Shown: positions 1,251 through 11,857 of the stretch, one piece after another
Layout: each line of letters begins with the position of its first letter
Position numbering within the stretch: position 1 is the stretch's first letter
Assembly (NCBI RefSeq): GCF_900109285.1
Contig: NZ_FNZQ01000002.1
Span: 124,001-188,000 of the forward strand
Reading direction: 5' to 3'
Source: Jannaschia helgolandensis
Lineage (GTDB): Bacteria; Pseudomonadota; Alphaproteobacteria; Rhodobacterales; Rhodobacteraceae
Length of the DNA stretch: 64,000 bases
Made by a program: the position numbers and the translations under genes
Notes under the pieces: generated by a model
Databases searched by the model: none
Told to the model about the DNA's origin: nothing
Seen by the model: the letters and a program-made list of their open reading frames with translations, nothing else

Positions 1251-2252
1251 TTACATGCTGCTTGCGTCGGTCAGCGGACCGGTGTTGACCGTATCCTCAT
1301 AGCTGTCCAGCGCGGCGGGGATGGAGCCAGCCTCGACGAAGACGTCGGCAACACCCTTCATGAAGGTCGCCGCGTTCCCGCCAAGCCAGGCTTCGGAAAG
1401 CTGCTGCTCGATGGTCGGGAAGGTGAAGCCGGTAAGATCGCTGCGCGCGGTCTCCAGTTCCTGACCGGATTCCTTGGCGATCACCTCCAGCATCTCCTCG
1501 GACTGGTTCGCTGCCCACTCGGCATTGGCATCCGCCGTCACCTTGACGAACTTGGCCGCCATTTCTGGGTTCTCTGCAATGAACTCGGCCGGGGCGGAGG
1601 TCACGTCGAACACCAGAATGCCCAGCTCTTCCTTTTCGGCACCGGTCAGCAGGACGTTGCCCGATTCCTTCATCCGCGAAAGGCCACCGCCGTAACCGCA
1701 GGCGAAGTCCACATCGCCCTGCGCCAAGGCAGCGGACCCGGTCGGGGGATCCATGTCAACAATATCGAGCGTCGAAATATCGACGCCGAAGTAATCCATC
1801 TGCCGAAGGAAACCATAGTGCGCGGCGGTGCCCAACGGGACGGCAACTTTCTTTCCTGCCAGGTCGCCGGCATTGTCCTTGGTGATCTGCAGGTCCGAGC
1901 GTACGACGCAGTTATCGTTCTCCGAGTAGGACACTGCGACGTCGATGATCTGCAGGTTCTGACCGGCCGAGACTGCGACGACGAAGGGAGGAACACCTTG
2001 GCTGACAGACATCTGCACATCGCCGGAAGCCATGGCGGCGCTCATCGCGGTGCCGGTCTCGAAGCTGACCCATTTGACCGGAACGCCCAGTGCCTCGTCA
2101 TAGGAACCGTCGGCCTTGGCCGCCAGCATCGGCATCGGCCATTCCAGGAAATAACCGACCGTGATCTCGTCGAGATGGGCGTCGGCCATGGCGGCCTGAC
2201 CGGACATCAGCGCGGCGGCTGCGGTCATGGTTGCGAGAGTGAACTTTTTCAT
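1251..2252 (-). CDS. tauA: Taurine-binding periplasmic protein TauA
   Basis: Solute-binding protein that captures taurine in the periplasm and delivers it to TauBC. 333 residues with a clear Sec signal peptide (MKKFTLATM, hydrophobic core, cleavage near AMADAH). The mature part has the NitT/TauT-type layout: VGYFLEWPMP at the N-terminus, SFETGTAMSAAMASGDVQ, and GKKVAVPLGTAAHYGF. The start was chosen because it begins the signal peptide and has CGGAGTACTACCA just upstream; longer in-frame readings lack any signal. It lies 59 bases after the flavoprotein gene and ahead of tauB. Substrate could also be another sulfonate, but the island context favours taurine. Confidence 0.9.
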   Translation of the reverse strand: MKKFTLATMTAAAALMSGQAAMADAHLDEITVGYFLEWPMPMLAAKADGSYDEALGVPVKWVSFETGTAMSAAMASGDVQMSVSQGVPPFVVAVSAGQNLQIIDVAVSYSENDNCVVRSDLQITKDNAGDLAGKKVAVPLGTAAHYGFLRQMDYFGVDISTLDIVDMDPPTGSAALAQGDVDFACGYGGGLSRMKESGNVLLTGAEKEELGILVFDVTSAPAEFIAENPEMAAKFVKVTADANAEWAANQSEEMLEVIAKESGQELETARSDLTGFTFPTIEQQLSEAWLGGNAATFMKGVADVFVEAGSIPAALDSYEDTVNTGPLTDASSM

Positions 2253-2311: not shown

Positions 2312-3646
2312 TCAGGCGGGATCCGTATTGGGTATCGACCGGGACCCGGCGGCGGCACCGGTCCTGCGACCCATTTCCAGTTGGTCGCGGATTCGCAGAT
2401 AACACAAGGCCAAGGGCGACCCTGCGGACTGGATTTCGCGAAAAGCATAAGGTTTCATCGGCGTGATCGGGAAAACGAGGCTGTCAGCAGGCGCCCCCAG
2501 CGCCCGCCGCGCCATCTCGCGCCCCATCAGATGCGACATCGCAACGCCGCGTCCGTTGTAACCCAGACCGGCGATCACGCCCGGCTGGGGTTCGTGCATA
2601 TGAGGAACGCGGTCCTGCGTCAGCGCGATCTGCCCGCCCCAGCGATATTTCCATGTCACGCCGCGCAGCGCCGGGAACAGACGCGGCACGTCCTGTAACA
2701 TCCACGAATACCCGCGCCGTCCCATGCCCGGAAGCGTATAGCCGATGCCACCGAAGACGAACTGGCCACCGGGCTCGCGCCGCGAATACATGATCAGACG
2801 GCGGGTGTCGGAAATCGTATGCCCCTCGGGCAGCAGCTCGGCCAGCACGTCGTCAGGCAGAGGCTCCGTCGCGATCTGGATCGAGGTGAACGGCAGGATC
2901 GTGCGTCGCAACCCCGGCTGCGTCCCGTCGGTATACCCGTTGGTGGCCAGCACCACCTGACTGGCCCGCACACGGTGCGCGCCCACCGAAAGCGTCCAGA
3001 TGCCGTCGGCGCGGGTCATACCGGTCACGCGGCTCTGCGTCGCGATGCGCGCTCCTGCGCGGGCTGCGGCGCGGGCCAGACCGCGCACCAGCGACAGCGG
3101 CTGCACCGCGCCGCCCTTCGGCGCCATGACCGCGCCCAGATAGCCGCGTGCGCCGGTCTTGCGGCGCGTCTCCCCGGCATCCATGAATTCGAACCCGGCC
3201 CCGAAAGAATTCCACAGCCTCGCATTGTGCCGCGCGACCCTGGCGGCAGACGCACAATGTTCCGCCCGGATCCAGCCGTGCTGCCGCGCCTCGCAGTCGA
3301 TATTTTCAGTGCGGATCAGTTCGAACAGATCGTCCGCCGATGCCAGCGACGCCGCTGTCATCCGCTCGAAATAGGTATCGCCGACCGCGTCGCGCAGGTG
3401 TTCGGGCTTTGCCACGGGCAGCATCGGGTTTACCTGGCCGCCGCTGCGCCCGGACGCCCCCTGCCCGATCTGCCCGCCTTCGATAACCTGAACGTCCGTC
3501 CCGGCATGAGCCAGATCCAGCGCAGTCCGCAGTCCGGTAAAGCCTCCGCCGATCACGACCACGTCACAGGTCACGTCCCCTGCAATCGGATCGTAATGAT
3601 CCACCGGGGTGCCAGTAACTGTCCAAAAGGCGGTTTTGGTTACCAT
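2312..3646 (-). CDS. FAD-dependent amine/taurine oxidoreductase (TauY/PuuB/DadA-like)
   Basis: Flavoprotein of the DAO family, 444 residues, probably oxidising an amine or amino group to an imine. The N-terminal dinucleotide fold is visible as VVVIGGGFTGLRTAL ending in an acidic residue (VIEGG), and the C-terminal FAD-contact region includes AGLGYNGRGVAMSHLMG. It resembles PuuB/OrdL-type oxidases and, by position, TauY, the large subunit of taurine dehydrogenase. No gene for the small TauX subunit is visible in the window. It heads the minus-strand operon with tauABC and is divergent from tpa; GAGGGAGAGA precedes the ATG. The exact substrate cannot be told; taurine, hypotaurine or a related amine are candidates. 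Confidence 0.75.
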   Translation of the reverse strand: MVTKTAFWTVTGTPVDHYDPIAGDVTCDVVVIGGGFTGLRTALDLAHAGTDVQVIEGGQIGQGASGRSGGQVNPMLPVAKPEHLRDAVGDTYFERMTAASLASADDLFELIRTENIDCEARQHGWIRAEHCASAARVARHNARLWNSFGAGFEFMDAGETRRKTGARGYLGAVMAPKGGAVQPLSLVRGLARAAARAGARIATQSRVTGMTRADGIWTLSVGAHRVRASQVVLATNGYTDGTQPGLRRTILPFTSIQIATEPLPDDVLAELLPEGHTISDTRRLIMYSRREPGGQFVFGGIGYTLPGMGRRGYSWMLQDVPRLFPALRGVTWKYRWGGQIALTQDRVPHMHEPQPGVIAGLGYNGRGVAMSHLMGREMARRALGAPADSLVFPITPMKPYAFREIQSAGSPLALCYLRIRDQLEMGRRTGAAAGSRSIPNTDPA

Positions 3647-3742: not shown

Positions 3743-3778
3743 CTGGACATAGGACCACACCCTCACTGGCCCTATCGG
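3743..3778 (+). promoter_or_regulatory. Putative TauR operator before tpa (paired direct repeats)
   Basis: Two direct repeats, CTGGACATAG at 3743 and CTGGCCCTAT at 3766, start 23 bp apart; a third weaker copy CTGGTGCCCT starts at 3790. The second repeat starts exactly 103 bp before the tpa ATG, as in the matching pair before xsc. From memory, CTGGACYTAA-type direct repeats are needed for TauR activation of tpa in Rhodobacter capsulatus. The site lies between divergent promoters and could also act on the flavoprotein-tauABC operon. Confidence 0.75.
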
Positions 3779-3868
3779 TTGGCCTGATTCTGGTGCCCTT
3801 GTTATATCATGTTAAAGACAATCGCGGCGCCGGGCCTCCGTGCGCGCTTACCGGGAGGATCTGAAATC

Positions 3869-5257
3869 ATGGATAACATTACCCCCAACGACATGACCGC
3901 CATCGTCGAGGCGGACCGCGCCCACGTCTGGCACCATCTTCTGCCCCACAAGCCGCTTGAAACCAACGACCCGCGAATCATCGTCGAGGGCAAGGGGATG
4001 CGCGTCTGGGACCAGAAGGGCAAAGAGCATCTGGACGCCGTGTCCGGCGGCGTCTGGACCGTCAACGTCGGCTATGGCCGCGTGGAAATCGCCGATGCCG
4101 TCCGCGACCAGCTGGTCAAGATGAACTATTTCGCGCAATCCGCCGGATCGATCCCCGGGTCGCAGTTCGCCGAAAAGCTGATGACCAAGATGCCGGGCCT
4201 GACGCGGCTGTATTATGCCAACTCGGGGTCCGAGGCCAACGAGAAGGCCTTCAAGATGGTCCGCCAGATTTCGGCGCGCCATCACGGCGGCAAGAAATAC
4301 AAGATCCTGTACCGCGACCGCGACTATCACGGCACGACCATCGCCTGCCTGTCGGCGGGCGGCCAGCAGGAACGCAACGCGCAATACGGACCCTATACGC
4401 CCGGTTTTGTCGCCGTCCCCCACTGCCTTGAATATCGCAAGGCCGATCAGGGCTGGGGCGACGTCGAGGATTACGGCCGCCGCGCCGCCGATGCCATCGA
4501 GGAAGTCATCCTGCGCGAAGGCCCCGACACCGTCGGCGCGCTCTGCCTGGAGCCGATCACGGCAGGTGGCGGCGTCATCGTCCCGCCCAAGGGATACTGG
4601 GAGCGGGTGCAGGAGATTGTCGAGAAATACGACCTGCTACTGCATATCGACGAAGTGGTCTGCGGCGTCGGGCGCACCGGCACATGGTTCGGGTATCAGC
4701 ACTACGGCGTGAAGCCCGATTTCGTGACGATGGCCAAGGGCGTCGCCTCGGGCTACGCGGCGATTTCGTGCTGCGTAACGTCCGAGAAAGTCTTCGAGAT
4801 GTTCAAGGACGACCCGTCCGACCCGATGCACTACTTCCGCGACATCTCGACGTTCGGCGGCTGCACGGCGGGTCCGGCGGCGGCGCTGGCCAATATGAAG
4901 ATCATCGAGGACGAGGACCTGCTCGCCAACTGCACCAGGATGGGTGACTACATGCTGGACCAGTTGCATGCGATGGCCGACCGCCACGCGGTCATCGGTC
5001 AGGCCCGCGGCAAGGGGTTGTTCGTGGGTGCCGAACTGGTGGCGGACCGCGACACCCGCGCGCCCGCCGACGAAAAGCAGGTGCAGGCCGTCGTGGCCGA
5101 TTGCATGCAGCAGGGCGTCATCATCGGCGCGACCAACCGCAGCGTTCCGGGGCATAACAACACGCTATGCTTCTCGCCCGCGCTGATTGCCACCAAGGAC
5201 GACATCGACAACATTCTGGAGGCTGTCGACGGCGCCTTGGGCCGCGTTTTCGGCTGA
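3869..5257 (+). CDS. tpa: Taurine:pyruvate aminotransferase
   Basis: PLP enzyme transferring the amino group of taurine to pyruvate, giving sulfoacetaldehyde and alanine: the first catabolic step after uptake. 462 residues, class III aminotransferase. Visible landmarks are YYANSGSEANEKAFK (cofactor phosphate region), DYHGTTIA, HIDEVVCGVGRTG (the Asp that pairs with the PLP ring) and TMAKGVASG with the Schiff-base lysine near K290. The start at 3869 was preferred over an upstream ATG because GGGAGGATC precedes it. Divergent from the tauABC operon and preceded by the CTGG direct repeats. Other omega-aminotransferases look similar; xsc, pta, tauR and tauABC nearby make the taurine assignment strong. 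Confidence 0.92.
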   Translation: MDNITPNDMTAIVEADRAHVWHHLLPHKPLETNDPRIIVEGKGMRVWDQKGKEHLDAVSGGVWTVNVGYGRVEIADAVRDQLVKMNYFAQSAGSIPGSQFAEKLMTKMPGLTRLYYANSGSEANEKAFKMVRQISARHHGGKKYKILYRDRDYHGTTIACLSAGGQQERNAQYGPYTPGFVAVPHCLEYRKADQGWGDVEDYGRRAADAIEEVILREGPDTVGALCLEPITAGGGVIVPPKGYWERVQEIVEKYDLLLHIDEVVCGVGRTGTWFGYQHYGVKPDFVTMAKGVASGYAAISCCVTSEKVFEMFKDDPSDPMHYFRDISTFGGCTAGPAAALANMKIIEDEDLLANCTRMGDYMLDQLHAMADRHAVIGQARGKGLFVGAELVADRDTRAPADEKQVQAVVADCMQQGVIIGATNRSVPGHNNTLCFSPALIATKDDIDNILEAVDGALGRVFG

Positions 5258-5580
5258 TCTTGCACAGGCCCCGTCCGGGTCATCCGGGCGGGCACGCCTT
5301 TCGTGCGAAACGTCCGCGTGATCCATGCTGAACAAACTGAACAGGTCAGGGTGGTCGGTGACGAACGCGGTATGGCTGTCGACATGGATGAATGACAACG
5401 CTGGCTCAATCTTTCCCCGATCCTGCAGTCTGCCCCTCAAGAAACAAATTGCCCGTATCGATGTCAGATCCATCCTCCCTCGCACCCGAATGTCATCGAC
5501 CGTGACGGACCGTGCTTTGACTAAAGCTCCGCCGCCGGTGAAAAGGTTCTAGCCCTAGAATGTTTTCCCATGGAGATCAC
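5258..5580. other. Intergenic region after tpa with two tandem hairpins
   Basis: No gene is supported in these 323 bases. At 5270-5292 there is a hairpin with arms CCCGTCCGG and CCGGGCGGG (one G-U pair, 5-base loop), and at 5292-5306 a second one, GCACG and CGTGC around CCTTT. They begin 12 bases after the tpa stop and probably terminate or stabilise its transcript, although no T-run follows. The rest shows short open frames only, none with a ribosome site and sensible codon use. The promoter of the following exported-protein gene should lie near its 3' end. Confidence 0.5.
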
Positions 5581-6081
5581 ATGATGAACGTACTGAAAAC
5601 GGTTGGCCTGACCGCCATGGCGACGATGATACTTCTGTCTCCTGCCAATGCTGAACCCGTGTCAGTGCAGGCCGTGATGGTGCCGCAGGAAACCATCCGA
5701 ATGGATTTCGGGGATGGCAGCAATCGTTTCGTCCTGATGGTTCGCCGAGAAGGCGAATCGGAAGGCACAGGCGCGCTTGCCAATGCATCTGTGTCCGAAT
5801 TCGGCTGGCATGATATCGATCCGCCAAATGGCGGCGATCCCCGCGGCTACCTTCAGTTCACAACCGATAACGGCGACGTTGCGAATATCAAATTCACCGT
5901 AAGAGCGGTCTTCATAAACGACGGTGACAAGCCGCGTTTGGCCGACTACGGCTTCTGGGAGCTTGTTTCGGGCACCGGCCAATTCGCGTCGATGACGGGG
6001 GTCGGCACGCTGACCATCAAGTCGGCATCCGAGACGGATCGCCTGTTCTCACTGGAAGGCGAACTGGGTCCGCGCCCCTGA
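5581..6081 (+). CDS. Exported protein of unknown function
   Basis: 166 residues with a Sec signal peptide (MMNVLKTVGL, then a hydrophobic core, cleavage near ANAEPV). The mature chain has no cysteine and many short hydrophobic/polar alternations (RFVLMVRREGE, GYLQFTTDNGD), with the glycine-rich segment VSGTGQFASMTGVGTL near the C-terminus, suggesting a small beta-barrel or beta-sandwich periplasmic protein. GGAG lies 5 bases before the ATG, which decides the start. I do not recognise a family with confidence. It sits inside the taurine island between tpa and tauR, on the same strand as tpa but 323 bases later; a taurine-related role would be a guess. Confidence 0.75.
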   Translation: MMNVLKTVGLTAMATMILLSPANAEPVSVQAVMVPQETIRMDFGDGSNRFVLMVRREGESEGTGALANASVSEFGWHDIDPPNGGDPRGYLQFTTDNGDVANIKFTVRAVFINDGDKPRLADYGFWELVSGTGQFASMTGVGTLTIKSASETDRLFSLEGELGPRP

Positions 6082-6268
6082 AGTCGCATCGCAGGCGTAG
6101 CGGCTGACCGACGTCAGCCGCTGCATCCTGATCATGGCCGCATCGCGGAACATCGGTCGGTCTGGACCGAAGCGTTCGTTCGCCATCCCGCCGTCCATCA
6201 GGCACCGCCCGTATCATCTTGGCGCGGCAGCAGCGACGCGACCGTCACAGTCGCGCGCGCCCCTCGCC

Positions 6269-7300
6269 TCAGCCGACCTTCACCACCATCTTTCCGAAGT
6301 TCCGCCCCTCCAGCAGATCGTTCAGCGCGCCCGGCGCCGCCTCAAGCCCTTCGATCACCTGCTCCTGATATTTGACGCGGCCCTCCTTCAGCCAGCCGGT
6401 CATGTCGCTGACGAATTCCATCTGCGCCGATTTCGGGAAGCTGTCGAAGATGATGAACCCCTCCATCTTGACCTTCTGCCGCAGGATCGTGCCCATTATC
6501 TGCGGCCCGTGGTCCGGGCCGTCGGGCAGGCCGGTCTCGTTGTACCAGGCCACCATGCCGCAGACCGGCACCCGCGCGAACGGGTTCAGCAACGGCAGCA
6601 CCGCATACAGGACGCGCCCGCCCACGTTCTCGAAGTAGACGTCGATGCCGTCGGGACAGGCCGCCTTCAGCTGCGCCTCGAAATCGTCGGCCCGGTGGTC
6701 GATGCAGGCGTCGAAGCCCAGCGTATCGACCACATGCGCGCATTTTTCAGCCCCGCCCGCGATGCCGACGACACGGCACCCCTTGATGCGCGCGATCTGC
6801 CCGACCGTCGCGCCCACCGGGCCGGAGGCGGCGGCGACCACGACGGTTTCGCCCGCCTTCGGTTCGCCGATCCGCAAAAGTCCTGCATGCGCAGTATATC
6901 CGGGCATCCCCAGAATCCCCAGCGCCCAGGACGGATGTTCGGGCGATGGTCCCAGGTTCAGCACCTGCGTCCCGTCCGACAGCGCATAATCCTGCCAGCC
7001 GCTGCCCGCCAACACGTGATCCCCCGGCGCGAATTCCTCAAGGTTCGATGCCACCACCTGCGCCACGACCTGTCCGGTCATCACGCCTCCGATCGGCACC
7101 GGCTCGGCATAGGATTTCGCGTCGCTCATGCGCCCGCGCATATAGGGGTCCAGCGACAGATAGATCGTCCGCAACAGCATCTCGCCGGGTCCGGGGTCCG
7201 GCACGGGCGCGGTTTCGAGCCGCAGCGTCTCGTTGTCCGGCAGGCCCTCGGGCCGGTTGGCAAGGACGACGCGGCGGTTCGTGTCTGGTGTCTGGGGCAT
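6269..7300 (-). CDS. NADP-dependent medium-chain reductase, CurA/leukotriene B4 dehydrogenase type
   Basis: Zinc-free MDR-family enzyme, 343 residues, likely reducing an alkenal or alkenone double bond with NADPH. Family marks: LSLDPYMRGRM near residue 50, GMPGYTAHAGL, the nucleotide motif AAASGPVGATVGQIA, FENVGG, and a C-terminal KMVVKVG. The ATG is preceded by CCGGAAGACG. It lies between the exported-protein gene and tauR on the opposite strand. The CTGGAC repeats next to tauR face this gene, the nearer one starting 108 bp before its ATG, almost the same geometry as at tpa and xsc, so it may belong to the TauR regulon (inference). No step of the known taurine route needs this activity. Confidence 0.88.
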   Translation of the reverse strand: MPQTPDTNRRVVLANRPEGLPDNETLRLETAPVPDPGPGEMLLRTIYLSLDPYMRGRMSDAKSYAEPVPIGGVMTGQVVAQVVASNLEEFAPGDHVLAGSGWQDYALSDGTQVLNLGPSPEHPSWALGILGMPGYTAHAGLLRIGEPKAGETVVVAAASGPVGATVGQIARIKGCRVVGIAGGAEKCAHVVDTLGFDACIDHRADDFEAQLKAACPDGIDVYFENVGGRVLYAVLPLLNPFARVPVCGMVAWYNETGLPDGPDHGPQIMGTILRQKVKMEGFIIFDSFPKSAQMEFVSDMTGWLKEGRVKYQEQVIEGLEAAPGALNDLLEGRNFGKMVVKVG

Positions 7301-7400
7301 GATCGTCTTCCGGTCTGTTTACAGGTCTACTCCCCAGACCATCTGCCACGACGGGCGTCAAACCGGACACCGCGATCCAGCCGAAATCCGCCCCACTATT

Positions 7401-7430
7401 CAGTCCAGTCATCCGGCGCTATAGGTCCAG
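7401..7430 (-). promoter_or_regulatory. Putative TauR operator at the tauR start
   Basis: On the minus strand two direct repeats read CTGGACCTAT (starting at 7430) and CTGGACTGAA (starting at 7408), 22 bp apart. They end 3 bp before the tauR ATG at 7433, so a bound regulator would cover the tauR promoter or leader (autocontrol), and they point at the CurA-like gene whose ATG is 108 bp further on. Same motif and near-same spacing as before tpa and xsc. Confidence 0.6.
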
Positions 7431-7432
7431 AC

Positions 7433-8908
7433 ATGGCCATTGCCGTCGAACAGTTCTTCCTCGATCCCGCACACCGCGGCACCCTTCAGCGTCAACTGCA
7501 GGAGATCGTGACAGGTGCCATCCTCGCCGGTCGCTTCCGGCCCGGCGACCGGATGCCGTCGTCCCGCGGGCTGGCCCGGCATCTGGGCATCAGCCGTATC
7601 ACCGTCACGCTGGCCTATACCGAACTGGTGGCGAACGATTACCTGTCGTCGCGCGGTCGGTCGGGTTATTTCGTGTCCGAGAGCGCCCCGCGCCCGCCCA
7701 GCTTTCCGACGCAGACCCCCTCGGAATCGCGCGTCGACTGGTCGCGCGTGCTGGGTCAGCGGTTTCCGCCCGCCACGATCCTGACCCGGCCCGAAGACTG
7801 GCGGCGCTACCGCTATCCGTTCATCTACGGCCAGGCCGACGCCCGACTGTTCGATCACCAGAACTGGCGCAAATGTGCCTTGCAGGCCCTGGGCGCCCGC
7901 GATTTCGCCGCGATGACCGAAGACAGCTATGGCCGCGACGATCCGCACCTGATCGAGCAGATCATCCGCAACATCCTGCCGCGCCGGGGCATCGTCGCGA
8001 CCCCGGCCGAGGTGCTGGTGACGATGGGCGCGCAGAATGCGCTGTGGATGCTGGCGCAGGTCTTGCTGACGCAGCGCCGCACGGCGGCAATGGAATTCCC
8101 CTGCTACCCTGCCCTGCGCGAAATCCTGCGGCAGGCACGCTGCAATACGCTGGAGGTGGCGGTCGATGGCCACGGTCTGCCGCCCGACGATGTGCCGCCC
8201 ACAACCGACGTCGTCTTCGTCACGCCATCACACCATTGCCCGACCTCCGCGACGATGCCCGTGGCCCGGCGGCGCGAATTGCTGGCGCGCGCCGAACAGG
8301 ATGATTTCCTGATCGTCGAGGATGATTACGAATTCGAACTGGCGTTCACCGCCTCCCCGTCACCCGCGCTCAAGTCGCTGGATCGGGGCGGCCGCGTGGC
8401 CTATATCGGCAGCTTCGCCAAGTCGCTGTTTCCGGGCCTGCGCCTTGGCTACATCGTCGCACCCGAGCCTTTGATCCGCGAACTTCGCACCCTGCGATCG
8501 CTGCTGGTGCGCCACGTTCCGGGCCACATGCAACGTGCGACGGCCTATTTTCTGGCGCAGGGGCATTACGACGCGCAGGTCCACAAGATGGCGCGCGCCT
8601 ACCGCGAACGCCGCGCCGTGGCCGAAGTCTCGATCCAGTCCAACGGGCTGAGCATCGCCGGTGCCAGCAGCTTCGGCGGATCGTCGTTCTGGATGGAGGC
8701 CCCGCCCGGAATCCAGTCGGCGGCCCTGGCGGAACGGCTGCGCCAGCGGCAGGTGCTGATCGAACCGGCGGCGGCCTTCTTCGGCGACGGGCGCGACCCG
8801 GGCACGCATTACCGGCTGGCCTATTCGTCGATTTCGGTGGCCGACATACCCGAAGGAATCCGCCGCGTGGCCGAAGAATGTGCGGCGATGGCGCGGGGGG
8901 CGGCCTGA
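7433..8908 (+). CDS. tauR: TauR, MocR/GntR-family regulator of taurine genes
   Basis: Chimeric regulator, 491 residues: a GntR winged helix-turn-helix (residues about 10-80, with MPSSRGLARHLGISRITV) joined to a fold-type I aminotransferase-like domain. The latter keeps the PLP lysine, near K330 in GSFAKSLFPGLRLGY, and the IVEDDYEFEL region. Family knowledge: MocR proteins sense amino compounds through PLP, and TauR activates taurine genes. It lies between tpa and xsc, with CTGG repeats at all three loci. The ATG at 7433 has no ribosome site and sits right behind a TATAGG-like hexamer, so the mRNA may be leaderless. No other start upstream looks credible. Confidence 0.9.
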   Translation: MAIAVEQFFLDPAHRGTLQRQLQEIVTGAILAGRFRPGDRMPSSRGLARHLGISRITVTLAYTELVANDYLSSRGRSGYFVSESAPRPPSFPTQTPSESRVDWSRVLGQRFPPATILTRPEDWRRYRYPFIYGQADARLFDHQNWRKCALQALGARDFAAMTEDSYGRDDPHLIEQIIRNILPRRGIVATPAEVLVTMGAQNALWMLAQVLLTQRRTAAMEFPCYPALREILRQARCNTLEVAVDGHGLPPDDVPPTTDVVFVTPSHHCPTSATMPVARRRELLARAEQDDFLIVEDDYEFELAFTASPSPALKSLDRGGRVAYIGSFAKSLFPGLRLGYIVAPEPLIRELRTLRSLLVRHVPGHMQRATAYFLAQGHYDAQVHKMARAYRERRAVAEVSIQSNGLSIAGASSFGGSSFWMEAPPGIQSAALAERLRQRQVLIEPAAAFFGDGRDPGTHYRLAYSSISVADIPEGIRRVAEECAAMARGAA

Positions 8909-8940
8909 TGGCTATGGGACAAGCCGTTCCAAGCTTGCAA

Positions 8941-8976
8941 CTGGCCCTAGGCTGCAGGCCTTGCTGGCCCTATCGA
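8941..8976 (+). promoter_or_regulatory. Putative TauR operator before xsc (paired direct repeats)
   Basis: CTGGCCCTAG at 8941 and CTGGCCCTAT at 8964 start 23 bp apart, and the second copy starts exactly 103 bp before the xsc ATG. Copy number, spacing and distance to the gene match the tpa site base for base, and the second repeat shares CTGGCCCTATCG with it. Confidence 0.75.
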
Positions 8977-9066
8977 AGCCTTGACCGGAAGCCTAATGTT
9001 ACGGCAAGTATAAGACAAATCGAGACTTAGAGTCTCATTTTTGATATCCAGCGGGAGGAGAGACCC

Positions 9067-10845
9067 ATGAAGATGACCACCGAGGAAGCCTTCGTAAAGA
9101 CCCTGCAAATGCACGGCATCCGGCATGCGTTCGGCATCATCGGGTCGGCCATGATGCCGATTTCGGACATCTTCCCCAAGGCCGGGATCACCTTCTGGGA
9201 CTGTGCCCACGAAGGCTCCGCAGGCATGATGGCCGACGGATATACCCGCGCGACCGGCGAAATGTCGATGATGATCGCCCAGAACGGCCCCGGAATCACC
9301 AACTTCGTGACGGCCGTCAAGACCGCCTACTGGAACCATACACCGCTGCTGCTGGTAACGCCGCAGGCCGCTAACAAAACCATCGGTCAGGGCGGCTTCC
9401 AGGAAGTCGAACAGATGAAACTGTTCGAGGACATGGTCGCCTATCAGGAAGAGGTCCGCGACCCCTCGCGCATTGCCGAGACGCTGAACCGCGTCATCAT
9501 GGAGGCCAAGCGCGCCTCCGGTCCCGCCCAGATCAACATTCCTCGCGATTTCTGGACCCAGGTCATCGACATCGACCTGCCGATGATCGTCGATTTCGAA
9601 CTGCCCTCGGGCGGCGAACAGGCGATGAAACGAGCCGCCGATCTGCTGTCGCAGGCCAGGAACCCGGTCATCCTGAACGGTGCGGGCGTCGTCCTGTCCG
9701 AAGGCGGTATCGCCGCGTCGATGGCTCTGGCCGAACGCCTCGATGCGCCGGTCTGCGTCGGCTATCAGCACAACGACGCCTTCCCCGGATCGCACCCTCT
9801 CTTTGCCGGACCGCTGGGCTATAACGGCTCCAAGGCCGGGATGGAGCTGATTTCCGAGGCCGATGTCGTTCTCTGCCTCGGCACCCGTCTGAACCCGTTC
9901 TCGACCCTGCCGGGCTATGGCATGGATTACTGGCCGAGGGACGCCAAGATCATCCAGGTCGACATCAACCCGTCGCGCATCGGTCTGACCAAGAAGGTCA
10001 CCGTGGGCATCGTCGCCGATGCCGCCAAGGCCGCCAACGGCATCCTCGCCCAACTGTCCGATACGGCGGGCGACGCAGGCCGCGCCGAGCGCAAGTCGAA
10101 GATCGCCCAGACCAAATCGGCCTGGAAACAGCAGCTTTCCTCGATGGATCACGAGGAGGACGATCCCGGCACCACCTGGAACGAACGTGCCCGCGAGGCG
10201 CGTCCCGACTGGATGTCGCCGCGTCAGGCGTGGCGCGCCATCCAGTCCGCCTTGCCGCGCAACGCGATCATCTCGTCTGACATCGGCAACAACTGCGCCA
10301 TCGGCAACGCCTATCCCGACTTCGACGCTGGGCGGAAATACCTTGCCCCCGGACTGTTCGGTCCCTGCGGCTACGGCCTGCCGTCCATCGTCGGCGCCAA
10401 GATCGGCTGTCCCGACGTGCCGGTCGTGGGGTTTGCCGGCGACGGTGCCTTCGGCATCGCGGTCAACGAACTGACCGCCATCGGTCGCGAGGAATGGCCC
10501 GCCGTCACGCAGATCGTCTTCCGCAATTATCAGTGGGGCGCGGAGAAGCGGAACTCGACTCTCTGGTTCGACGACAACTTCGTCGGCACGGAACTGGATA
10601 TGAAGGTGTCCTACGCCGGTATCGCTCAGGCCTGCGGTCTCAAGGGTGTGCAGGTTCGCACCATGGACGAATTGACCACCGCGCTGGACACCGCGATCAA
10701 GGATCAGATGGACAACAACGAGACCACGCTGATCGAGGTCATCCTCAACCAGGAGCTGGGCGACCCTTTCCGGCGCGATGCCATGAAAAAGCCCGTGCGT
10801 GTGGCGGGCATCGACAAGAACGACATGAACGTCGCGGCGGAGTGA
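9067..10845 (+). CDS. xsc: Sulfoacetaldehyde acetyltransferase
   Basis: Thiamine-diphosphate enzyme that cleaves sulfoacetaldehyde with phosphate to acetyl phosphate and sulfite, the central C-S bond-breaking step. 592 residues with the acetolactate-synthase-like three-domain layout: an N-terminal PYR domain (AFGIIGSAMMPISD, with the conserved Glu in HEGSAGMMADGY), a middle domain from about residue 190, and a C-terminal ThDP/Mg motif starting GDGAFGIAVNELTAI and ending RNYQWGAEKRN. GGGAGGAGAG precedes the ATG. It opens an operon with pta and soeABC and is preceded by the CTGG direct-repeat pair. Related ThDP enzymes exist, but the sequence and neighbours make Xsc very likely. Confidence 0.95.
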   Translation: MKMTTEEAFVKTLQMHGIRHAFGIIGSAMMPISDIFPKAGITFWDCAHEGSAGMMADGYTRATGEMSMMIAQNGPGITNFVTAVKTAYWNHTPLLLVTPQAANKTIGQGGFQEVEQMKLFEDMVAYQEEVRDPSRIAETLNRVIMEAKRASGPAQINIPRDFWTQVIDIDLPMIVDFELPSGGEQAMKRAADLLSQARNPVILNGAGVVLSEGGIAASMALAERLDAPVCVGYQHNDAFPGSHPLFAGPLGYNGSKAGMELISEADVVLCLGTRLNPFSTLPGYGMDYWPRDAKIIQVDINPSRIGLTKKVTVGIVADAAKAANGILAQLSDTAGDAGRAERKSKIAQTKSAWKQQLSSMDHEEDDPGTTWNERAREARPDWMSPRQAWRAIQSALPRNAIISSDIGNNCAIGNAYPDFDAGRKYLAPGLFGPCGYGLPSIVGAKIGCPDVPVVGFAGDGAFGIAVNELTAIGREEWPAVTQIVFRNYQWGAEKRNSTLWFDDNFVGTELDMKVSYAGIAQACGLKGVQVRTMDELTTALDTAIKDQMDNNETTLIEVILNQELGDPFRRDAMKKPVRVAGIDKNDMNVAAE

Positions 10846-10876: not shown

Positions 10877-11857
10877 ATGACCTCGCCGCTCCTCGCCCTG
10901 CGCGACATGGCCCGGGCCGCATGCCATCATATCGTCCTGCCGGAAGGCACCGATCCTCGCGTCGTCGAGGCCGCAGGCCGCGCCGTGGCCGACGGTCTGG
11001 CGCGGGTCACGCTGCTGGCTCCGGCGGACACCGATACGCCCGATGGCGTCACCCTGCGCGACCCGGCCACGGCCGATACCGACGCCATGATCGCCGCCTA
11101 TATGGAGGCCCGCGCCAAGCGTCACCCGACGCCCGAGGATGCCGCGCAGGCGGTCACCGACCCCCTGATCCACGCCGCTCTCATGGTCCGGACGGGCCTG
11201 GCCGACGGCACCGTCGGCGGTGCGGTCGCCATCACGTCTGACACCGTGCGCGCCGCGCTCCAGATGATCGGCACGGCCCCCGGTGCCCCGCTCGTCTCCA
11301 GCTTCTTCCTCATGGTCCTGCCCGACACGCATGCCACGCGCCCCGGCACGGGCCTGATCTTCTCGGACTGCGGCCTCGTCATCGACCCGGACGCCATCCA
11401 ACTCGCCGCCATCGCGCATCAGGCCGCCGCCAGCGCCCGCGCCCTGCTCGGCACCGAACCGAAAGTCGCCATGCTGTCCTTTTCCACCAAGGGCAGCGCA
11501 CACCACATGGCCGTCAACAAGGTCACGGAAGCACTTGAAATCGCGCGCAAGACCGCGACATTCCCCATCGACGGCGAGCTTCAGTTCGACGCCGCCTTCG
11601 ACGTCGGGGTGGCCGCATCCAAAGCCCCCGGCAGCCCTGTCGCGGGTCAGGCCAACGTGCTGATCTTTCCGAATCTCGACGCGGGCAACATCGGATACAA
11701 GATCGCGCAGCGGATCGGCGGGGCGACTGCCATCGGCCCGGTCCTTCAAGGTCTCGCCAAACCCGCCAACGACCTGTCGCGGGGTTGCACCGCCGACGAT
11801 ATCATCGACATGATCGCGGTCACCTCCGCCCAGATCGATCAAGGGAAAAGCACATGA
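10877..11857 (+). CDS. pta: Phosphate acetyltransferase (short form)
   Basis: Converts the acetyl phosphate released by Xsc to acetyl-CoA, conserving its energy. 326 residues, the length of the single-domain PTA_PTB type without the N-terminal DRTGG/AAA regions of E. coli Pta. Typical segments are IVLPEGTDPRV at the N-terminus, MVRTGLADGTVGGAV, FSTKGSAHH and ANVLIFPNLDAGNIGYK near the C-terminus. It follows xsc after 31 bases and its stop overlaps the soeA start (ATGA), so the three steps are transcribed and probably translated together. Confidence 0.93.
   Translation: MTSPLLALRDMARAACHHIVLPEGTDPRVVEAAGRAVADGLARVTLLAPADTDTPDGVTLRDPATADTDAMIAAYMEARAKRHPTPEDAAQAVTDPLIHAALMVRTGLADGTVGGAVAITSDTVRAALQMIGTAPGAPLVSSFFLMVLPDTHATRPGTGLIFSDCGLVIDPDAIQLAAIAHQAAASARALLGTEPKVAMLSFSTKGSAHHMAVNKVTEALEIARKTATFPIDGELQFDAAFDVGVAASKAPGSPVAGQANVLIFPNLDAGNIGYKIAQRIGGATAIGPVLQGLAKPANDLSRGCTADDIIDMIAVTSAQIDQGKST

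Follow-up and report, generated by a model that had tools for sequence, protein, structure and literature searches.

Predicted TauR operators before tpa and xsc and a reversed, more closely spaced site at tauR in Jannaschia helgolandensis

Two pairs of direct repeats precede tpa and xsc, the predicted genes for taurine:pyruvate aminotransferase and sulfoacetaldehyde acetyltransferase, in a stretch of 64,000 nucleotides from Jannaschia helgolandensis (contig NZ_FNZQ01000002.1, positions 124,001 to 188,000; the whole stretch is called the window below). These pairs are very probably operators of TauR, a regulator encoded between the two genes, which would serve as an activator of both. A third pair, reversed and spaced by 22 base pairs (bp) instead of 23 bp, abuts the start of tauR and most likely represses this gene.

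Results

Predicted operator pairs of tpa and xsc

An earlier note on this DNA, made from the letters alone, had described the repeats, their 23-bp spacing, a distance of 103 bp to both start codons and a shared sequence, all of which are read directly in the window.

3743 to 3775, plus strand: predicted TauR operator of tpa; box 1 CTGGACATAG (3743-3752), box 2 CTGGCCCTAT (3766-3775), spacing 23 bp
3869 to 5257, plus strand: tpa, taurine:pyruvate aminotransferase; aminotransferase families, best PRK07678, below cut-off
8941 to 8973, plus strand: predicted TauR operator of xsc; box 1 CTGGCCCTAG (8941-8950), box 2 CTGGCCCTAT (8964-8973), spacing 23 bp
9067 to 10845, plus strand: xsc, sulfoacetaldehyde acetyltransferase; TIGR03457 above cut-off

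Synteny with tauABC, tauR and xsc is the basis for the name tpa. At both genes the ATG (3869 and 9067) lies 103 bp after the first letter of box 2, and CTGGCCCTATCG is common to the two. The gapped pattern of the repeats matched three times in the window, but not once in any of 100 dinucleotide shuffles. When two boxes spaced by 23 bp were required, the tpa and xsc sites were the sole exact matches in the 3.56-Mb genome. Up to two mismatches gave 7 places in the genome versus 16 with a reversed-pattern control, thus nothing besides the exact sites stood out. A looser gapped pattern yielded 4 matches in the whole genome versus 3 in the control. The match at G000:C7:257334 was rejected as a regulon site, being located within an open reading frame.

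The comparison set consisted of the 80 best of at least 586 confirmed tauR candidate loci and the window, i.e. 81 sequences with 1.67 Mb; the nearest named relatives by TauR among these best 80 were Jannaschia donghaensis and J. rubra (84%). A two-box matrix was built from the tpa and xsc regions, and both strands were scanned at spacings of 19 to 27. The upstream region was usable in 61 of the 81 sequences for tpa and in 69 for xsc; the others had no qualifying gene or a locus end too near. Five loci (L051, L060, L071, L073 and L074) carried a tauR-like gene, yet no qualifying tpa or xsc on the fetched stretch. A gene-facing pair was present in 61/61 tpa regions and 68/69 xsc regions, while sequence-reversed controls reached a score of 12 in 0/61 and 0/69. 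Conservation in related genomes, on which the earlier note had staked its claim, was hence borne out. At a score of at least 15 the 81 sequences contained 203 hits corresponding to 199 distinct sites, 62 at tpa, 68 at xsc, 63 at tauR and 6 elsewhere, with 6 in the reversed control. Lowering the threshold to 12 gave 211 distinct sites, 12 of them elsewhere, compared to 14 in the control. Boxes at tpa and xsc were spaced by 23 bp in 120 of 129 operators and by 22 bp in 9, and C was more frequent than A at position 5 of both boxes. In the family the strict pattern was found in 68 of 198 genomes; the reversed pattern had 4 matches in 2 genomes. Loci from Rhodococcus, Cupriavidus and Azospirillum had no site that clearly exceeded the control range.

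Two further points of the earlier note fared less well. Its weaker third copy at 3790 is present as CTGGTGCCCTTG, but it is not conserved: a third box occurred at any given offset in at most 0.02 of the 61 tpa regions. When the region upstream of tauA was searched, as the note had proposed, a tauA-facing site turned up once among 43 loci that have tauA on the minus strand, and not at all within the 250 bp preceding tpa in the 20 genomes of the genus. A separate tauA-facing operator was rejected on the count of 1/43.

The reversed site at tauR

The earlier note had missed the third match of the gapped pattern in the window, which lies at 7403-7430 of the minus strand and ends 2 bp short of the ATG of tauR (7433).

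7399 to 7430, minus strand: predicted TauR operator at tauR, reversed relative to the gene; box 1 CTGGACCTAT (7430-7421), box 2 CTGGACTGAA (7408-7399), spacing 22 bp
7433 to 8908, plus strand: tauR, MocR-subfamily regulator; PF00392 GntR winged helix and PF00155 aminotransferase class I/II domain
6269 to 7300, minus strand: CurA-type NADPH-dependent reductase, divergent from tauR; NF058644 above cut-off, possible member of the regulon

The tauR product has the domain composition of the MocR subfamily and is 50% identical to the tauR product of S. meliloti. A reversed pair with a score of at least 12 was found at tauR in 69 of the 81 sequences. Its spacing was 22 bp in 59, 23 bp in 8, and 21 and 24 bp in one each. 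Compared genome by genome, the tauR site had the narrower spacing in 55 of 63 cases and the activator sites in 2, while both were equal in 6. When the sequences were collapsed at 70% TauR identity, 22 bp predominated at tauR in 11/13 clusters and 23 bp at tpa and xsc in 14/14.

The gap between operator and start codon fell into two classes. In 46 sequences it was 7 bp or less (one overlapping). Here an AGG, GGA or GAG triplet started 10 bp before the ATG in 25/46, in the common layout within the near box, and may be the ribosome site. The pattern NAnnnT peaked at +8 (24/46) and +19 (20/46), and TTG stood 15 bp before the site in 17/46; any assignment of a -10 element in this class is tentative. 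The gap was 10 to 17 bp in 22 sequences; of these, 12 had TAnnnT at 12 bp upstream of the ATG, and 12 had TTG at 35 bp upstream of it. This looks like the pattern of a leaderless tauR promoter, the -35 element of which would be bracketed by the boxes. Both arrangements suit repression of tauR, and from its position we consider this the most likely function of the reversed site.

Sites pointing away from tauR were seen on plasmids, where 17 loci were drawn from 172 records having an xsc match. In all nine loci examined that have tauR diverging from tauA or from genes of a tripartite ATP-independent periplasmic (TRAP) transporter (L087, L088, L091, L095, L096, L211, L212, L214 and L215) a 22-bp pair pointed away from tauR. 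The pairs of L091 and L096 scored only 12.1, which is inside the control range, and in the S. meliloti divergon (L087) an overlapping 23-bp pair scored 17.2 versus 15.1 for the 22-bp pair. Because these 22-bp pairs face the divergon partners, 22-bp operators are probably able to activate. The distance from box 2 to the ATG was 87 to 120 bp in the seven annotated tauR-tauA/tauK loci with a best pair of 22 bp. By comparison of these layouts, the tauR site in the order tpa-tauR-xsc looks like a divergon operator that was kept. The loci of S. meliloti and Ensifer suggested an ancestral divergon of three boxes, which was rejected because the Aminobacter sequence lacked a third box and the tauR-tauA/tauK intergenic regions of Shinella and Paracoccus jeotgali had no second pair scoring 8 or more. 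Two Rhodobacterales plasmids (L210 and L216) carry a LysR-family gene in place of tauR opposite TRAP transporter and xsc genes; no TauR-type pair with a score of at least 8 was found in their LysR-side intergenic regions.

If a newly formed tauR-curA divergon existed in J. helgolandensis, the reversed site could serve the reductase instead of or besides tauR. Its boxes do face curA, box 2 starts 108 bp from the curA ATG, as it does in the divergons, and curA adjoins tauR in 4 of the 20 genomes of the genus. On the other hand, the site is present at tauR in 69 of 81 sequences, although curA was seen in just one of the 80 fetched loci besides the window, and the window has no TAnnnT near +30 from box 2 on the curA side. 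We regard a role for curA as unlikely and favor autorepression of tauR.

Operator and regulator in the genus

All 20 genomes of the genus contained tpa and xsc, and 17 contained TauR, called at E 1e-100. The xsc operator scored at least 19.7 in 17/17 genomes with TauR and was absent in the three without (-7.1, -6.4 and -13.0). Likewise, all 17 had the tpa operator, 16 of them with a score of at least 20 and one with a weak 9.7, and the same three lacked it (-11.0, -0.1 and -10.8). At both genes the operator was found only together with tauR; genomes without TauR number only three. Start codons were picked mechanically, and four anchors are not starts (tpa of G012, G016 and G017, tauR of G001). 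The view of the earlier note that one regulator, TauR, ties tpa and xsc together is strongly supported by the shared operator at 61/61 and 68/69 regions, its absence in TauR-less genomes and the published motif.

Another regulator, be it a different MocR protein or a sulfur or nitrogen regulator, might bind the repeats with TauR as a bystander. Other candidate relatives of TauR exist in every genome of the genus (12 to 28 at first look). However, the three genomes without TauR keep tpa and xsc and yet lack both operators, and tauR itself carries this motif in relatives. A bystander role of TauR is thus quite improbable.

Distance to the start codon and to the promoter

The earlier note attached meaning to the identical 103-bp distance, which did not hold up in the relatives. 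Among 54 sequences having both operators the two distances were equal in the window alone. Box 2 lay 76 to 158 bp before the ATG at tpa (median 106) and 65 to 130 bp at xsc (median 97.5). In the genus, too, equality was restricted to the genome of the window (1/17, with two approximate tpa anchors). The equal distance is a coincidence. What is constrained at xsc is how far the -10 element, not the ATG, lies from box 2: TAnnnT stood exactly 30 bp from the start of box 2 in 48/68 sequences, compared to a background mean of 0.14 per offset.

8994 to 8999, plus strand: predicted -10 element of xsc, TAATGT; its first letter is 30 bp downstream of that of box 2

A 17-bp spacer would place the -35 element over the end of box 2. 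The offset between operator and predicted promoter expected of a class II activator was clear at xsc (48/68) and loose at tpa. That the 103 bp are functional in themselves, e.g. through a fixed leader RNA common to tpa and xsc, is scarcely credible. The distances are equal in the window, and 8 of the 17 TauR-bearing genomes of the genus have xsc distances of 103 to 105 bp. However, equality is limited to 1/54 sequences, it is the -10 offset that stays constant at xsc, and as a conserved feature the equal distance was already refuted.

Neighboring genes and a TauE-family gene elsewhere

10877 to 11857, plus strand: pta, phosphate acetyltransferase; TIGR00651 above cut-off, 31 bp after xsc
2312 to 3646, minus strand: oxidoreductase dependent on flavin adenine dinucleotide (FAD), Pfam DAO; divergent from tpa across the operator
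1251 to 2252, minus strand: tauA, binding protein of the taurine ATP-binding cassette transporter; best NCBIfam TIGR01729, below cut-off

Judged by its position pta is probably co-transcribed with xsc. The FAD-dependent oxidoreductase possibly heads an operon with tauA and tauB, which is also on the minus strand. It adjoins tpa in 1 of 19 other genomes of the genus (G007), while tauA lies within the 1.5-kb flank of tpa in 17/20. A bisC/hybA/dmsC-like set at the locus was recognized from translations of open reading frames alone. The small protein predicted at 5581-6081 begins with a signal-like segment, matched no family and was not seen in the other tpa loci of the genus that were examined.

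Outside the window, a TauE/SafE-family gene (PF01925; G000:C5:950441-951373) has a 23-bp pair upstream that is reversed relative to the gene. Within the genus, 13 of the 17 TauR-bearing genomes had this operator at a score of at least 7.9 (11 of them reached 12), reversed and at the same place in all 13, and none of the 3 without TauR had it. Because the pattern search that gave this site had only 4 matches versus 3 in the control, the evidence for it is its conservation. By eye, a TTTGACA-like element recurs between the operator and the gene.

Discussion

The boxes with their conservation, orientation and spacing, the operator-to--10 offset at xsc and the co-occurrence with tauR are observations. 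They are best explained by a TauR dimer that would bind head-to-tail to two CTGG(A/C)CyTA boxes two helical turns apart. At xsc box 2 would overlap the -35 region, and TauR activated by taurine would recruit RNA polymerase to a -10 element 30 bp after box 2, i.e. by class II activation. The same mode is probable at tpa with a looser -10 element. At tauR the third, reversed 22-bp operator abutting the start would most likely repress the gene.

Several points weigh against this reading. Binding, taurine dependence, activation and repression are inferred here. Training and scoring of the matrix used the same tpa and xsc regions, while the tauR, TauE and plasmid sites were outside the training set. 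The relatives are not independent: the 81 sequences form 15 clusters at 70% TauR identity, and 5 of the 17 TauR-bearing genus genomes, that of the window included, are also among the 81. Of the three TauR-less controls G018 is the weakest because its xsc may be of a different type; it is only 77% identical, like the operator-less second xsc copy of G009. At tpa there is no sharp -10 element, with NAnnnT at +31 in 22/61 and TAnnnT at +30 or +31 in 0/61. The tauR site of the window is a weak copy, the score of which (16.6) lies below the best chance-like hit of 18.0 within a transporter gene of L216; another such match, within the TauE-family gene of L102, scored 13.4. Reversed controls at tauR reached 12 or more in 3/81 (maximum 15.7), those in plasmid loci scored up to 14.9, and in the genus the tauR site scored at least 12 in 10/17 genomes with TauR and less in 7/17. 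With a score within the range of chance, the case for the tauR site of the window rests on place, orientation and spacing. Finally, the window TauR exceeds the NCBIfam PdxR equivalog NF052282 with 357 bits versus a cut-off of 320. We consider the name PdxR misleading because the genomic context is that of taurine genes. The score of the PdxR model is a likely origin of wrong automatic names for TauR.

Taken together, a published regulator-operator pair was confirmed in another genus by a natural experiment, in which there is no operator where there is no regulator, and the analysis shows which distance is constrained. The regulon is an ordinary one with a two-spacing rule that is possibly unreported, and the reversed 22-bp operator of tauR is the addition to the known TauR regulon. 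We tentatively raise the possibility of two operator grammars, 23 bp and promoter-facing for activation of tpa and xsc and 22 bp and reversed at its own start codon for autorepression, with a leaderless tauR in one group and a tauR site that would be a divergon operator left over after the partner moved. The 22-bp pairs that face tauA or tauK in divergons argue against spacing alone as the code. Yet the rule that box spacing together with orientation may set activation versus repression by a MocR regulator is testable.

In Rhodobacter capsulatus, Wiethaus et al. (2008) reportedly located the TauR sites at tpa. No TauR rule on spacing or autorepression was named in the titles and abstract openings searched, which is weak evidence of novelty as most subscription papers and RegPrecise lay outside the search. 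In the accessible part of PMC5320631 the distance between TauR boxes is said to vary slightly, and that portion of the text does not tie 22 or 23 bp to a gene or orientation; the accessible main text of PMC11423573 has no whole-word match for TauR.

Like the window sites, the operator of R. capsulatus TauR, a MocR-type activator of taurine genes, consists of direct repeats, and TauR binds CTGGACYTAA there (PMC5320631, in excerpt), a sequence that the window boxes match closely. Its consensus has A at position 5, where C is commoner in both boxes of the tpa and xsc operators scanned here. The TauR regulons of Suvorova and Rodionov (2016), as far as given in the same excerpt, include tauABC, tpa, xsc, pta, tauE, bisC/dmsC/hybA and a COG665 oxidoreductase, and their members resemble the locus in the window together with the TauE-family gene. 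MocR regulators are often auto-repressors according to this source. GabR of Bacillus subtilis likewise activates catabolic genes and represses its own, but differs from TauR in ligand and motif (PMC5320631, in excerpt). In S. meliloti TauR is needed for induction of PtauA by taurine (PMC4254191, in the part available). As in the window a 22-bp pair is present in S. meliloti, there between tauR and tauA and facing tauA, with a TauR that shares half of its residues with ours. Yet in S. meliloti a single intergenic region serves tauR and tauA, whereas the window has separate operators at tpa, xsc and tauR.

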